In this document: positions 6,109-17,771 of the stretch, piece after piece
Position numbering within the stretch: the first letter of the stretch is position 1
Layout of the letters: every line of letters starts with the position of its first letter
Source: Lentisphaeria bacterium
Lineage (GTDB): Bacteria; Verrucomicrobiota; Lentisphaeria; Oligosphaerales; Oligosphaeraceae
Direction: 5' to 3'
Assembly (NCBI GenBank): GCA_024405215.1
Contig: JAKSPB010000033.1
Span: forward strand, 1 to 35,590
DNA length: 35,590 nt
Position numbers and translations under genes: made by a program
Notes under the pieces: generated by a model
The model's database searches: none
What the model saw: only the letters and a program-made list of their open reading frames with translations
What the model was told of the DNA's origin: nothing

Positions 6109-8412
6109 CTAGCGTTTCTTGGTTTTCTTTGCGGGCTTGCGATCCAAGACCTTGGCTTCCATGTGTTCGGAGCCGGCGGCACCAGGGCGGATCGTCAAGT
6201 TGGCGTTGGGGACCTCGATGGTCTTGATCGTGGGATCCTTCAGGGATCCTGCCAGCGCGCGCTTGTTTTCCTCGCCGGGAACGCCCTTGAGGACCAGCTC
6301 CGGTGCCAGGCAGAGCGGACGATGATCCAACTGCGCCCAGCATTTCTCCCAGGCCTGGCGTTTTTCTTCCGTGGGCTGGAAGTCAGAAATGCCCAAGGCG
6401 GCAAGGGCCTGCAATAGGAAATGCTGTGCCAGGAACTGGGTGGTCTGCCCGTTGAGGGTGAAGCCGTAATCCGCCAGGTTGTCGCGCTGTAGATCCAGAT
6501 ATTGGTCCGGACGGGGAAGGACGGACGCTGCGGCAAGGTCCATGTTCGCCTGCTGCTGGAAGACCCAGAGCGGCCAGGCGTCCTGCAGGATGGCGGACGC
6601 ATCGTCGGTCATTCCGTTCTTCGCCAGGACTGTCGTGGCAATGGCGACGGTGGCCAGACGCTCCGCCGCGTAGGTCATGCTGGGAATGTTGGCGTCGGCG
6701 CCGAACATGTCGGGGAGCATGGGCGAGAGTTCCAGGCCGGATTCCGCAGCAAGCGCCAGACGCAGCAACTGTGCCTGCCGCTGTGGGTTCTGGGCTGTGG
6801 CGTCTTGTCCGAGGAACATGGCCAGCCAGGGGGAGAAGGGATGATCCGCCAAGGAGTTGATGGTCTTTTCCCCTAGGGCGTTGCGCAATTCCTTCAGATC
6901 ATTCTGGAGCTGCTTTGTGTTGTCTTCGGGAAATTCCAGGCGATGGGCTTCCAAGGCCAGGCCGACAAGCGCCGCAGTCTCCAAGGCTTCTTCCGGGCCG
7001 GGAAGGGGTTCTTCGTTCATGGTGGGCTTGGGAAGACGCGTGGGGTAGAGCACCTCCGGCAGGTAGTTGCCTTCTGCGTTGATCTGGGTGGAGATGTGAC
7101 GATAAAGCTGGCGGAGATTTCGGCGGCAGAGCGATCCGGTGACATTGTCTTCGGGAAGGACTTCTGCTGCCCGTTGGAGGGCCAGGTAGGCCAGTGCGTT
7201 GGTCTTCAGATCGCTGATACGGGCCGGCACCTCGAACTCGCCCGCGTCGTCCAGGTCTTCGTCTTCCACCACCATGGCGAAAGTGCGTTCGTTGGATTTG
7301 CGACGTTCCCTGGCGACGAGCTGGCCGTTTTCCGCCTTTTCCGCAGCATCCAGGTGCTTTAGCGCCTTGAGGAGAACTTTGGCGGTGTTTTGGATGGCCT
7401 CGGAGGAGCGGTTCTGCGGGGACAGTTCCTTGCCGTAAAAGTGGGCGTACGTCAAGGTGTAAAGCAGTGCGGCCTGGTCGAACATGGAGGTCTGGCCATC
7501 CGCGCGGCTGGCGAACCACTCGGGGAATGGCTGCGTGATATTGCCGGCGTTGGCGTTGACCAATGACAGGAGCCTTTCCTTCAAGGGCCGGAGAGAGGTC
7601 GCGTTGGGCTGTCGGACGATTCGCGCAGGATGGGCGCGGAAAAGCCGCTGCGACCCCTTCTCGTTCGCAAAATAGCTGTCGCATTCAAAGAGGGTGACCT
7701 TGAAGGGGACGCTGGAGGCGCCCATTTGCATCCAGAGGCTCATGGCGCTCCATAGGTTGGCTTCCGCAATCAGGTTGCTGACACGGGTGATGGAGAACTG
7801 GCGTTCCTCGGTCAGAAGATAGCGTCCGGTCAGCTGTTCCGGCGGAAAGGCGAATGCCGCTGTCTGGTCGAAGGCAATGCCGACGACGCTGGAAAGGAGC
7901 AGGCGTGAGGAATTGACCACAAAGTCGTTGACAGGCAGGACTGCCTGGACGATGTCCAGCCGCAGGGAGTTCCAGGCGTTGGGATTGTCCAGCTTGGTCT
8001 TGACGATGTATGAGAGCTGGCGTTTCTCTTCCTGGGCCTGTTTGAGCTGGCCCTCCAGGTCAGCTTTGATGGCGGCCGCGTATTCCGGCTCACGCTTTTC
8101 AATAATGGTCAGCAGGAACGACAGCGCGTCCTGGAAGTTCTTTCCGGCCGCATAGTAGGTCCGTCCGGGAAAGATTCCGTCTCCCAGAGTGATAAAGAGG
8201 ACGCGTGGCGAGTCGTCCTTGATCGGGGAGAGAACCACTAGTTCCTTTGCCGTCTTTTTGGCAAGAAGGCCCTCGCGGAGTTGCGCCGTGAAAGATTTCA
8301 GCGCATCCTCCTGGCAGGCAAGCGGCGTCTTGATCTCTCTGAACCAGGGACCTTCCTGGGCCTGGAGGAAACTGACACCGAACAGCAATAGGAACAGAAG
8401 GATGAGTTTCAT
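6109..8412 (-). CDS. Large secreted helical protein of unknown function
   Basis: I do not recognise a family. The 767-residue product starts MKLILLFLLLFGVSFLQA-QEGP, a clear signal peptide with a cleavage site after about residue 18, so it is exported. The rest is mostly helical: a charged stretch near 110-150 (KADLEGQLKQAQEEKRQLS) and a long region (about 420-700) with helix-rich, Ala/Leu-rich segments that recall alpha/alpha-toroid folds; that comparison is only impressionistic. The C-terminus is basic and Lys-rich (KPAKKTKKR). I start it at ATG 8412 because of the signal peptide; the frame is open 50 codons further upstream but that part crosses a terminator hairpin. It is transcribed in the same direction as asd, which lies upstream. 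Confidence 0.7.
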   Translation of the reverse strand: MKLILLFLLLFGVSFLQAQEGPWFREIKTPLACQEDALKSFTAQLREGLLAKKTAKELVVLSPIKDDSPRVLFITLGDGIFPGRTYYAAGKNFQDALSFLLTIIEKREPEYAAAIKADLEGQLKQAQEEKRQLSYIVKTKLDNPNAWNSLRLDIVQAVLPVNDFVVNSSRLLLSSVVGIAFDQTAAFAFPPEQLTGRYLLTEERQFSITRVSNLIAEANLWSAMSLWMQMGASSVPFKVTLFECDSYFANEKGSQRLFRAHPARIVRQPNATSLRPLKERLLSLVNANAGNITQPFPEWFASRADGQTSMFDQAALLYTLTYAHFYGKELSPQNRSSEAIQNTAKVLLKALKHLDAAEKAENGQLVARERRKSNERTFAMVVEDEDLDDAGEFEVPARISDLKTNALAYLALQRAAEVLPEDNVTGSLCRRNLRQLYRHISTQINAEGNYLPEVLYPTRLPKPTMNEEPLPGPEEALETAALVGLALEAHRLEFPEDNTKQLQNDLKELRNALGEKTINSLADHPFSPWLAMFLGQDATAQNPQRQAQLLRLALAAESGLELSPMLPDMFGADANIPSMTYAAERLATVAIATTVLAKNGMTDDASAILQDAWPLWVFQQQANMDLAAASVLPRPDQYLDLQRDNLADYGFTLNGQTTQFLAQHFLLQALAALGISDFQPTEEKRQAWEKCWAQLDHRPLCLAPELVLKGVPGEENKRALAGSLKDPTIKTIEVPNANLTIRPGAAGSEHMEAKVLDRKPAKKTKKR

Positions 8413-8442
8413 GGCGTAAGGGAGATGGATGGCAGAGAGGGA

Positions 8443-8473
8443 AAAAAGGAAGGCGCCGTTATGTGGCGCCTTC
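8443..8473 (-). terminator. Rho-independent terminator on the minus strand after asd
   Basis: On the minus strand the perfect 9-bp stem GAAGGCGCC / GGCGCCTTC (8473-8465 and 8457-8449) has a 7-base loop and is followed by CTTTTTT. This is a textbook intrinsic terminator shape, about 120 bp after the asd stop and just before the next gene's start. Confidence 0.6.
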
Positions 8474-8513
8474 GACCGCAGGAGCGCAAAACACGCAAAA
8501 AAGGCAAGGCAAA

Positions 8514-8550
8514 CAAAAGCCGCCTTCGGCGGTTTCGCCGAAGGCTTTTG
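8514..8550 (-). terminator. Second hairpin after asd, possible tandem terminator
   Basis: CGCCGAAGGCTTTTG (8536-8550) pairs with 8514-8531 over 15 bp, with a 3-base GCC bulge and a short loop. Read on the minus strand the stem ends in GGCTTTTG followed by TTTG. It lies 43 bp after the asd stop, so it and the T-rich hairpin at 8443 may act in series. Confidence 0.5.
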
Positions 8551-8592
8551 CCTATTTTGCAATTTTGCGCGTTTTGCTCTCCGTCTTTCGCT

Positions 8593-11716: not shown

Positions 11717-13159
11717 TTATTCGATGGCGTCGCGGAATTGCGCGACGGCTTCGGCCAAGGTGCCGGGGTACTTGTGGCCGCCTCCCAGGACGACAAAGCC
11801 GTTGAAGTTCCCGCAGCGCAAGATGGAGAGCATCTCCAGGACCTCGCCGTTGCCCTGGGCGAATTTCGCGGGCGTGCCGTCCCAGAGCGCGTCAGCCATG
11901 TCCAGCTGGCTGATGGTGTGGATGAACCGTCCGATTCTCCAGGAGCCCAGGAAGGGATGCTCGCCTGCCAGCGCGAATTCCGCCGGGTTGAAGACGAAGG
12001 CGCGGGGGTCCTTGCGCCCCTTGGTGGCGGTGGCCAGGAGGGCCTTGGCGGTTTCGGAGCTGATGCCGGTGTTCACGAAGTCCAGCTGGATCTTCAGTTT
12101 CTTGAAAACCTTTTCAGCCTCGGGGAGTGCGGCGGCCAGCGGCGCGATGACGCGGGTGATGCCGGCTGCCGCCCAGTCGTCCGCGCGCTTTTCCCAGTCG
12201 GCGGGGAAGGCGGGAAGACGCAGGGCGGAGATGCCGATGCCGTTCTCCTTCAGCTCGGCCACGGCGGCCTGCAGCTTGGCTGCGGGCAGGTAGGCTGCCG
12301 CTTTGCCCTGGATGAAGTCAAGTTCGATCCATTCCAGGCCTGCGGCCTTCAGGTTCTCGACCATCTCCGGAACGTAGCGCCCGCAAAGGGATGCGGCTGC
12401 CGCCAGATGGAAGGACTCCTTGGCGAAGATGCTCTTGGCGATGGCGGCGCGCTGAGAGACGCAGTCTGCGCAGGCGGGGTTGATGCACAGCGCGAAGGCC
12501 GGGTCGTCCTGCCCGACTTCCAGCAGGGTGTCCATCATGGCCTGCGCGTCAATGAGACGGACCTGGGCATTGCCGATGCGCGCCACGGCGGAGATTCCTT
12601 CCAGGCGGAGCAGACTGTCCAGTCCGATGAAGTCTCGGTGGGGGCCGGGATAGCAGGGCCACTTGCGGGTGACTGACTTTCCCTTGGCGTCCAGGGAGGT
12701 GGTCTCCACTGTGCGGAGATAAGGCAGGTCGAGCCAGGCTTCCACGGAGTGGAGCATGGTGTTGCGGTCCATGTCCACGCCTAGCAGGCAGATCTGTCCG
12801 CCGGCTTTTGCGATGCGGTCGTAGGGGCTGCCTTCGCCGTGTGCGGTAGCTGCCTTCAGGTGGTCGGCCAGGAGGCTCTTCGCCTTGGCGCCCACCGCAG
12901 CCAGCGTGCCCACGGGCGCGTCGCTGACCACGGCGCCCTTCCAGTTGCGGACCAGTTCCGTGAGGATGCCCAACTTGCCGAAGACAGGAACCACCAGGGT
13001 GCCCTTGGGGCCCAGGACATTCAGGAAGGCCTGGATGATGCCTTCGGGACCGCCCTCCACGGGGCCAAGGGCTACGACGGAGCTATGCAGCAACACCACG
13101 CCGCCTTTCTTGATGCCCAGGTTCTGGAGGGATTTCTCAAGTTCTGTACGTTTCAACAT
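11717..13159 (-). CDS. Fusion: AAC(3)-like acyltransferase domain plus sugar isomerase-like TIM barrel
   Basis: The first half (about 1-260) matches the aminoglycoside 3-N-acetyltransferase (YokD/FrbF) family: GGVVLLHSSVVALGPVEGG, GPKGTLVVPVFG, a central HGEGSPYDRI and HSVEAWLDLPY. Many family members act on substrates other than antibiotics. The usual RS-x-HP segment is not seen. The second half (about 270-480) looks like a xylose-isomerase/AP-endonuclease-type TIM barrel (SFHLAAAASLCGRYVPEMVENL...GLEWIELDF...FNGFVVLGGGHKY). The 480 residues form one open frame without a break. ATG 13159 has AAAGAGG upstream. It lies 14 bp after the cyclase-family gene and is surely co-transcribed with it. 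The reaction is unknown; drug resistance should not be assumed. Confidence 0.75.
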   Translation of the reverse strand: MLKRTELEKSLQNLGIKKGGVVLLHSSVVALGPVEGGPEGIIQAFLNVLGPKGTLVVPVFGKLGILTELVRNWKGAVVSDAPVGTLAAVGAKAKSLLADHLKAATAHGEGSPYDRIAKAGGQICLLGVDMDRNTMLHSVEAWLDLPYLRTVETTSLDAKGKSVTRKWPCYPGPHRDFIGLDSLLRLEGISAVARIGNAQVRLIDAQAMMDTLLEVGQDDPAFALCINPACADCVSQRAAIAKSIFAKESFHLAAAASLCGRYVPEMVENLKAAGLEWIELDFIQGKAAAYLPAAKLQAAVAELKENGIGISALRLPAFPADWEKRADDWAAAGITRVIAPLAAALPEAEKVFKKLKIQLDFVNTGISSETAKALLATATKGRKDPRAFVFNPAEFALAGEHPFLGSWRIGRFIHTISQLDMADALWDGTPAKFAQGNGEVLEMLSILRCGNFNGFVVLGGGHKYPGTLAEAVAQFRDAIE

Positions 13160-13173
13160 GATGGGAACCTCTT

Positions 13174-13815
13174 TTATTCTTCGACTTCTGCCAGGATGCG
13201 GCAGGGGATTTGCTTGACGGAGGGAATCGGAAAGAAAATGACGCTGACGAGGGCCGTCTCCGGCAAAGGAGCCAGGAGGCCGGGCTCGCAGACGGTGCAG
13301 ATGCCGGCGCCAAAGAGCTTCAGGAAGACGCCGTCCAGGCTGGTGCTTTCATAGACATCCGAGAGGATGCAGCGGCAGCCGGTGGAGATGATCCAGTCCA
13401 CGGCGTCCATGGCGAGCCAGACCGTGCGTTGCTCAATTTCCCAGAAGTGACGGTTTCCTAAGGCGTTGATGACCAGGAAAGGCGTCTTGATGTCGCCGCC
13501 TGCCGCCTGCCGCAGATCTTCCGCCGTGATGCCGCCGGAGCGGTCCGGACGGTCCAGGTGGATGGTGCGGCAGGGAATGCGGTAGAGCAGTTCCGGGGGG
13601 AAGTTCTTGGCATCCCAGCCATTGTCCGTCTCCTTGATATGTCCGGGGAAGTCGATGTACGATCCCGTCATGGAGGAGAGCGTCAGCTTGTGCACCAGGC
13701 CGGTGTAGCGGCAGCTTGCGGATTTCAGCGCGACTTCGCGGTTGTCGATGCTGTAGCTATGGCTGTCGTCGAAGCTGCGCTGGTCGGCTGCTCTGGATAA
13801 ATCAATAAGACGCAT
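13174..13815 (-). CDS. Cyclase / kynurenine-formamidase-like family protein with altered metal motif
   Basis: The 213-residue product resembles the cyclase family (PF04199), metal-dependent amidohydrolases that include bacterial kynurenine formamidase. It starts with the typical MRLIDLSR and has YIDFPGHI, NALGNRHFWE and a Cys-rich end. The family's metal motif HxGTHxDxPxH reads MTGSYIDFPGH here: both upstream histidines are replaced, while the aspartate and the last histidine remain. It may use a different metal site, or have lost catalysis. It is the first gene of a two-gene unit with the acetyltransferase-like/TIM-barrel fusion, so the two may act on the same compound. Confidence 0.68.
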   Translation of the reverse strand: MRLIDLSRAADQRSFDDSHSYSIDNREVALKSASCRYTGLVHKLTLSSMTGSYIDFPGHIKETDNGWDAKNFPPELLYRIPCRTIHLDRPDRSGGITAEDLRQAAGGDIKTPFLVINALGNRHFWEIEQRTVWLAMDAVDWIISTGCRCILSDVYESTSLDGVFLKLFGAGICTVCEPGLLAPLPETALVSVIFFPIPSVKQIPCRILAEVEE

Positions 13816-15831: not shown

Positions 15832-15868
15832 GTGACAAATTGACAAGACTTTACCATAAATGTATAAA
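15832..15868 (+). promoter_or_regulatory. Overlapping promoter boxes abutting the Tet(M)-like start codon
   Basis: TTGACA (15840-15845) and TATAAA (15863-15868) have ideal 17-bp spacing, but the start point would fall just inside the ATG at 15870. A second set, GTGACA (15832-15837) and CATAAA (15855-15860), also with 17-bp spacing, would start 2-4 bases before the ATG. This points to a leaderless or near-leaderless message, in keeping with the lack of a ribosome binding site. Confidence 0.45.
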
Positions 15869-15869
15869 A

Positions 15870-17771
15870 ATGTCTAAGCTCATAACTGGAATTCTAGCAC
15901 ATGTTGACGCAGGCAAGACCACGCTGTCGGAAAGCCTGCTGTTCAAGAGCGGAGTAATCCGCACGCAGGGACGCGTGGATGCCAAAGACGCTTTCCTTGA
16001 CCATAATGCCATTGAACGTCAGCGTGGAATAACCATCTTTTCGAAGCAGGCCAATCTCTCCGATAAAATCACATTGATCGATACTCCCGGACACGTGGAT
16101 TTTGGTGCCGAAATGGAACGCGCACTTTCCGTCCTGGACTGCGCGATTCTCCTGATCAATGCCAGTAACGGCATTCAGAGCCATACCAGAACGCTGTGGA
16201 ATTTGCTTGAAGAGTATAAAATCCCTACGCTGATTTTCGTGAACAAGATGGATCTGCCCGACACCAATCGGGAGGTCCTGCTTGCAAAATTGCAGAAAGG
16301 CTTGAGCGCAGGAGTGGTCGACTTTTCCTGCGAGTGCCTCTTCGGCAAGGATTTCAATGAGCAGATCTCTGGACTTGATTACGATCTGCTGGAAAAATAT
16401 CTGAATGGCGGTGTTCCGGATATCGAGGACATCTTGCGTCTGGTGTCGGAGCGCAAGTTGTTTCCATGCGTCTTCGGTTCCGCCTTGCGGAATGACGGAG
16501 TGGATGAGTTGCTGGACGTCCTGAACAAATACTTCGCCGTCCCGCAAACGGGAGATGAGTTCGGGGCACTGGTCTATAAGATTTCTTCGGACTGCCAGGG
16601 GAATCGTCTGACGAACCTGAAAGTAACGGGGGGGGCTTTGAAAGTCAAGGAATATCTTGGCGAAGAGAAAATCAACGAAATCCGCATATACAATGGCGAG
16701 AAGTTCGAACAGGTCAATGAGGTCGGGGCAGGGGAGCTTTGCACGGTGGTTGGACTTAAGGATTCCTTTGCGGGCAAGGCGTATGGCGCGGCTCATGGCG
16801 TGACGGACTTCAAACTTGAACCTGCCTTGATCTACGCAGTCAATATTCCCGATGGGCTTGACGATACGAAGATGCTCCAGATTCTGCACGGACTAGAGGA
16901 GGAGTTGCCCGAAATTCATGTGGAATATTCCAAGCAAGAGCACGAAATCCACGTCATGCTGATGGGAGTCGTGCAGACAGAAGTCATCAAGACCATCTTG
17001 CGGGAACGATATGGCATTGACGTGACCTTCGGAGAGGGGCGTATTGCCTATAAGGAGACCATCCTCGAACCCGTGGTCGGCGTGGGGCACTACGAACCGC
17101 TGAAACATTATGCGGAAGTGCATCTGAAATTGTCGCCATTGCCTTGTGGAAGCGGAATGCGTCTTGCCTGCAACTTGAGCGTCGAGCAATTGGACACCAA
17201 CTGGCAGCGCTTGATTCTTACCCATCTGCGGGAAAAGACTCACGTCGGTGTCTTGACGGGAAGCCCGCTGACGGATATGGAGATCGAAGTGACAGCGGGA
17301 CGTGACCATCTGAAACACACCGAAGGCGGCGATTTCCGACAGTCAACCTACCGCGCGATTCGTCAAGGGCTGATGGGGGCGAAATCCATATTGCTTGAGC
17401 CTATCTATGCCTACGAGGCGGTTGTTCCCAATAACTGTGTCGGACGATTCATGGCCGATCTCAATAAAATGCACGGCACTTGTGCACTGGATGAGACCTC
17501 AGAGGACTTCTCCACTTTGCATGGAAAGGTTCCCGTGGCGACAATGCAGAATTACTTGAATGACCTGCGCGCGTATACCAAGGGGCAGGGCGTCCTGGGC
17601 ATGGTCGTGTGCGGCTATGAGCCATGCCACAATCAAGACGAAGTGGTAGCCGCGCGCGGTTATGATCCAGATGCTGATCAGGAGAATCCATCCTCCAGCA
17701 TCTTCTGCGCACATGGCGCTGGATTTCTGGTGCCATGGAATATGGTGAAGGAATATCAGGACATCAAGTAA
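15870..17771 (+). CDS. Tet(M)-like ribosome-protection GTPase (EF-G superfamily)
   Basis: The 633-residue protein has EF-G/Tet(M)-type architecture and a length close to Tet(M). The GTPase motifs are AHVDAGKT (10-17), RGITI (52-56), DTPGH (71-75) and NKMD (125-128); the C-terminal part carries EF-G domain IV/V features such as SPLTDMEIEV and YEAVVPNN. Tet(M) relatives remove tetracycline from the ribosome, but many divergent chromosomal members have no proven resistance role, and I judge this a divergent one. ATG 15870 gives the expected start; there is no Shine-Dalgarno. The coding sequence carries a run of eight Gs at 16628-16635, a possible slippage site. No Tet(M)-type leader peptide was found. 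Confidence 0.8.
   Translation: MSKLITGILAHVDAGKTTLSESLLFKSGVIRTQGRVDAKDAFLDHNAIERQRGITIFSKQANLSDKITLIDTPGHVDFGAEMERALSVLDCAILLINASNGIQSHTRTLWNLLEEYKIPTLIFVNKMDLPDTNREVLLAKLQKGLSAGVVDFSCECLFGKDFNEQISGLDYDLLEKYLNGGVPDIEDILRLVSERKLFPCVFGSALRNDGVDELLDVLNKYFAVPQTGDEFGALVYKISSDCQGNRLTNLKVTGGALKVKEYLGEEKINEIRIYNGEKFEQVNEVGAGELCTVVGLKDSFAGKAYGAAHGVTDFKLEPALIYAVNIPDGLDDTKMLQILHGLEEELPEIHVEYSKQEHEIHVMLMGVVQTEVIKTILRERYGIDVTFGEGRIAYKETILEPVVGVGHYEPLKHYAEVHLKLSPLPCGSGMRLACNLSVEQLDTNWQRLILTHLREKTHVGVLTGSPLTDMEIEVTAGRDHLKHTEGGDFRQSTYRAIRQGLMGAKSILLEPIYAYEAVVPNNCVGRFMADLNKMHGTCALDETSEDFSTLHGKVPVATMQNYLNDLRAYTKGQGVLGMVVCGYEPCHNQDEVVAARGYDPDADQENPSSSIFCAHGAGFLVPWNMVKEYQDIK

Follow-up and report, generated by a model that had tools for sequence, protein, structure and literature searches.

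Antibiotic_NAT family enzymes share the published catalytic motif TxPhiHPhiAE, and the family includes AAC(3)-IVa, for which a Zn site has been described, as well as FrbF, YokD, and BA2930, which have the same fold and lack aminoglycoside activity (PMC8956665). Isatin hydrolase and KynB, of the Pfam Cyclase family, carry the metal motif HxG[T/A]HxDxPxH (PMC6117287). A search of the open-access literature for an acyltransferase followed by a xylose-isomerase-like barrel returned no characterized enzyme with this domain order and no description of the architecture, in agreement with a preliminary description of the DNA studied here, whose author knew of none. Here we analyze such a fusion, together with its cyclase-family neighbor, in a 35,590-nucleotide stretch of a Lentisphaeria bacterium (contig JAKSPB010000033.1, positions 1 to 35,590, hereafter the window) and in related genomes.

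Results

The fusion is a single conserved gene

The 480-residue open reading frame runs uninterrupted from ATG to stop and is preceded by a good ribosome-binding sequence, AAAAGAGG (Table 1). The coding pattern of GC content by codon position matches between the two halves, with third-position values of 0.82 in the N-terminal and 0.86 in the C-terminal half, indicating that both share one coding frame. The preliminary description, which read the gene as an AAC(3)-like domain followed by an isomerase-like barrel in one frame, is borne out by the Antibiotic_NAT match, the barrel model, and the full-length relatives. It had named two outcomes that would speak against this reading, namely no barrel similarity in the second half or separate halves in all relatives. 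Neither was found: 13 of 58 relatives match AP_endonuc_2, the second half is predicted to fold as a (beta/alpha)8 barrel, and every relative checked has the two halves fused. The fusion is thus a real, widely conserved two-domain protein.

Table 1. Positions of the fusion gene, its domains, and other features in the window
Feature	Position	Strand	Evidence or remark
480-aa fusion gene	13159 to 11717	-	ATG to stop
Antibiotic_NAT / AAC(3)-IV-like acyltransferase domain, residues 1-240	12440..13159	-	Pfam PF02522, NCBIfam, PDB match 6mn3
Zn-type Cys motif C225-x4-C230-x2-C233	12461..12487	-	conserved in 76-77 of 77 copies; aligned to Zn-binding extension of AAC(3)-IVa
Xylose-isomerase-like (AP_endonuc_2-type) TIM barrel without canonical metal ligands, residues 243-480	11720..12433	-	AlphaFold, Foldseek, alignment
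Cyclase-family (KynB / isatin-hydrolase-like) gene, 213 aa, directly upstream of the fusion	13174..13815	-	Pfam PF04199, E 2.5e-8
817-aa open frame	6109-8562	-	no Pfam or NCBIfam match; similar-sized related frame at the corresponding place in L031
EF-G-like GTPase	15840-17771	+	best NCBIfam match tetracycline ribosomal protection protein, 398.6 bits, well below cutoff 775

The fusion is present in 53 of 149 related genomes with E below 1e-113, and a scan of species genomes gave 158 loci. According to their record titles, the best 80 of these 158, which were analyzed further, come from about nine phyla (Lentisphaerota, Kiritimatiellota, Verrucomicrobiota, Planctomycetota, Hydrogenedentota, Latescibacterota, Gemmatimonadota, Armatimonadota, and Acidobacteriota). 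A near-full-length protein is encoded in 76 of the 80; the others reflect contig edges or extraction, except for L049, where the fusion gene (L049:10001-11431) has one in-frame TAG near codon 130 and is either a pseudogene or an assembly error. A scan of viral contigs found no relative. In a tree of the N-terminal domain one gain of the fusion suffices, consistent with, though not proof of, a single origin, the deepest join being poorly supported (51/71). One free-standing AAC(3)-like protein (L122, genome G099), with the Cys motif LCDSPSCSVC, no barrel, and a long tree branch, may be related to the fused N-terminal domain as a single-domain form. Searching 338 genomes of the phylum with the barrel profile gave no free-standing close relative, the weak matches being ordinary barrels. 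Antibiotic_NAT also occurs in other long open frames, such as those of 1366 aa in G004:C25 and 1047 aa in G036:C27. A 724-aa frame (L134:811-2985, genome G032) is another fusion with this fold, in which Antibiotic_NAT (E 2.7e-42) precedes a region that weakly resembles neutral/alkaline ceramidase (E 8.7e-5, under the cutoff).

The acyltransferase domain retains its catalytic residues and replaces its aminoglycoside contacts

The window protein matches PF02522 (Antibiotic_NAT) at E 1.3e-41 and 143.2 bits, against a gathering cutoff of 25, which places it in this family, and every one of the 58 sequences in alignment A2 matches it with E no higher than 0.1. By sequence and by structure its best PDB relative is AAC(3)-IVa (6mn3), with ~31% identity over residues 4-240. 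Alignment indicates that the first domain keeps the full Thr-His-Glu catalytic set of the AAC(3)/Antibiotic_NAT fold: T134, H137, and E140 fit the TxPhiHPhiAE motif, with no variation at H137 or E140 in any of 77 aligned copies, or at T134 among the 58 sequences that make up A2. H137 aligns with His154 of AAC(3)-IVa, whose mutation inactivates that enzyme. The Cys-rich C-terminal extension is likewise common to AAC(3)-IVa (group 1) and the fusion, and its conserved Cys motif would be expected to bind Zn.

These features could suggest an AAC(3) aminoglycoside-resistance enzyme with an accessory C-terminal domain, since its nearest solved relative is AAC(3)-IVa and both the catalytic dyad and the Zn-type Cys motif are retained. 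However, NCBIfam AAC_3_IV covers residues 5-240 at 117.8 bits, far under its cutoff of 420, and no curated AAC(3) equivalog cutoff is passed, the best score being 119.7 bits for a model with a cutoff of 270. In the alignment, the positions that touch aminoglycosides in AAC(3)-IVa hold other residues, specific to this family (F60 for W63, C169 for E185, and H174 for C190, with D67 deleted), so the substrate is probably no aminoglycoside drug; only E249 to Asp is conservative. Most relatives have Tyr or Phe where the window protein has C169. H174 lies within a family-specific signature, PGPHRDFIG (residues 171-179), whose PGPHR part is invariant in the fusion and which, with the fused barrel and a different genomic setting, sets it apart from AAC(3)-IVa. 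The chromosomal context and strictly co-occurring cyclase also argue against resistance, as do FrbF, YokD, and BA2930, which use this fold without aminoglycoside activity. Together these points make a resistance enzyme very improbable, and the domain is probably an active acyltransferase on an amine other than aminoglycosides. FrbF, YokD, and BA2930 resemble it in serving other substrates with the same acyltransferase fold and differ in being single-domain proteins without the barrel. We know of no linked cyclase for any of the three.

The second domain adopts a xylose-isomerase-like barrel without the canonical metal ligands

No significant Pfam match was obtained for the C-terminal half of the window copy, in which AP_endonuc_2 (PF01261) remained below threshold (E 0.074 with the whole protein and 0.019 with the half alone; 13.2-15.1 bits vs. 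a cutoff of 31.1). Among the 58 relatives, the 13 matches to this family at E <= 0.1 reach a best E of 2.4e-6. A sequence search of the PDB with the barrel profile gave no meaningful match. AlphaFold modeled the whole protein with pLDDT 95.5 and pTM 0.89, and the barrel half alone with pLDDT 96.6 and pTM 0.93, as eight strands and eight helices. Foldseek comparison of the barrel model with the PDB placed xylose-isomerase-like barrels at the top (2q02, 3tva, 3cqj, and 6wn6, with E down to 8.8e-7), and most of its best matches, including UlaE, YcjR, and AsbF, are of this kind. The predicted structure thus gives the second domain the (beta/alpha)8 fold of the xylose-isomerase-like superfamily. 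With YcjR (a 3-keto-glucoside 4-epimerase), UlaE, and AsbF (AP_endonuc_2) it shares an eight-stranded barrel and colinear alignment, with TM-scores of about 0.65-0.71 by query length; it differs from them in its short length (about 238 residues), its position behind an acyltransferase, and its lack of the canonical metal ligands.

Known isomerases and epimerases of the xylose-isomerase-like fold use a metal. In the fusion, the four canonical ligands (Glu, Asp, His, and Glu, at the ends of strands 5-8) are absent at the aligned positions in a sequence alignment of low identity; these positions hold a variable residue or Asn, Asn or Ser, a non-His residue, and Gly or similar. The alignment was made by MAFFT with a larger set of canonical barrels taken from related genomes, because an hhalign comparison of the barrel with only two of them fell short of significance (probability 0.45), probably owing to the two-sequence template. 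The sugar or polyol rearrangement proposed for the barrel in the preliminary description is consequently unsupported in its canonical metal-dependent form.

Barrel residues E279, P340, D423, G436, E439, E442, and S445 are invariant and N363 nearly so, and they tend to lie on the C-terminal side of the barrel, a bias that is weakly significant (p 0.048). The proposed rearrangement amounts to a bifunctional enzyme in which acyl transfer precedes or follows a true isomerase or epimerase step on the same sugar-like metabolite. The superfamily of the fold, the invariant polar residues E279, D281, N363, D423, and E439 in strand ends or loops on the C-terminal side, and two loci, L077 and L097, in which free-standing canonical barrels lie close to the fusion are in keeping with it, but the absence of all four family ligands at the aligned positions, in a fold whose known isomerases depend on metal, makes it unlikely. 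Loss of the ligands could also indicate an inert scaffold, a dimerization or docking surface for the strictly co-occurring cyclase-like partner with no ligand pocket, and the invariant E442, S445, R448, and C449 lie on one helix that may be an interface. We regard this as less likely still, as invariant residues also occupy the loops that bind substrates in the barrel fold and the whole barrel is retained in all full-length copies.

A metal-poor cyclase-family gene accompanies the fusion

The gene upstream of the fusion was previously described as overlapping it. The association holds, in that the two form a conserved, co-occurring pair, but the genes are adjacent, with a 14-nt gap. In 60 of 81 loci a cyclase homolog shares the strand of the fusion, and in none is it on the opposite strand. 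It is directly upstream in 52 loci (including L041, where an N run hides the gap length), further upstream in 5, and directly downstream in 3; for those directly upstream the median gap is 34 nt, and five overlap by 4 nt. A 717-aa frame in L041 that could be taken for a three-domain cyclase-acyltransferase-barrel fusion was rejected, the end of the cyclase being hidden by the run of ~100 Ns. Each of the 50 relatives that have the cyclase carries at least part of the fusion as well, and 5 fusion genomes, at least one of them at a contig edge, lack the cyclase (Fisher p 2.6e-34, a value inflated by shared ancestry). In about ten genomes both are present on different contigs or far apart.

The partner belongs with KynB and isatin hydrolase by Pfam and retains the Asp and final catalytic His of their motif, but its own motif reads MxG[T/S]Y[I/L]DxPGH in place of HxG[T/A]HxDxPxH. 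The first His is Met in 53 of 60 partners and the second is Tyr in all 60, while the Asp is kept in 55 and the last His in 60. Two of three metal ligands are thereby replaced in the window partner, by Met49 and Tyr53. In phmmer the cyclase gene had two matches among RNA cyclic phosphodiesterases (E 0.005 and 0.04), both judged to be chance.

A minority of loci carry a longer cluster

In a minority of relatives (for example L061, L063, L067, L077, L084, L152, and L154) the pair is part of a longer cluster, in which the cyclase and the fusion are joined by a divergent ROK regulator, a creatininase-family hydrolase, and a DegT/StrS aminotransferase, and in some cases by a Gfo/Idh dehydrogenase as well. 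The aminotransferase is operonic in about 7 loci, and a creatininase occurs in 10. Since such families commonly act on keto and amino sugars or cyclitols, we propose an amino-sugar or aminocyclitol-like substrate. PDB relatives of the DegT protein include perosamine synthetase, ArnB, and scyllo-inositol transaminase, and do not settle the substrate. No aminotransferase, creatininase, or ROK gene stands beside the fusion in the window, so the amino-sugar context rests on this minority of relatives. The neighbors in the window are butyrate kinase upstream and htpG and asd downstream, and give no hint of the substrate.

Discussion

Our analysis confirms the fusion and partly supports its earlier interpretation, which appears half right: conserved residues argue well for acyl transfer, but not for a classical metal-dependent sugar rearrangement. 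We favor, with a probability of roughly 0.55, a metabolic acylation module for the CoA-dependent N-acylation of a metabolite resembling an amino sugar or an aminocyclitol, in which the barrel would be a metal-free domain for binding or a remodeled catalytic one. In this mechanism the N-terminal domain would move an acyl group from CoA onto an amine, which His137, activated by Glu140, would deprotonate. The barrel may bind, present, or sequester a sugar- or cyclitol-like substrate or product, or may perform non-metal chemistry, and these roles seem more likely for it than classical metal-dependent isomerization. The fusion protein would act jointly with its cyclase-like neighbor, which is also short of two metal ligands. 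As a set, the ROK, creatininase, DegT, and Gfo/Idh neighbors found in some lineages are compatible with an amino sugar or aminocyclitol being oxidized, transaminated, and N-acylated. A further and more speculative proposal, which we consider fairly unlikely, is that the resistance-type acetyltransferase fold, metal-free barrel, and metal-poor cyclase-like partner make up an undescribed module, found in several phyla, that shares a non-metal reaction sequence on one amino-sugar-like metabolite.

Carriers of this gene can receive the annotation “aminoglycoside acetyltransferase”, suggesting drug resistance, whereas the evidence points to metabolism. Here acyl transfer and a sugar-isomerase-type fold are combined in a single chain. 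Metal ligands have gone from the fusion as well as from its partner gene, and the two are kept together across phyla. They define a two-gene system whose substrate could point to a new pathway for amino sugars or aminocyclitols in Lentisphaerota and their relatives.
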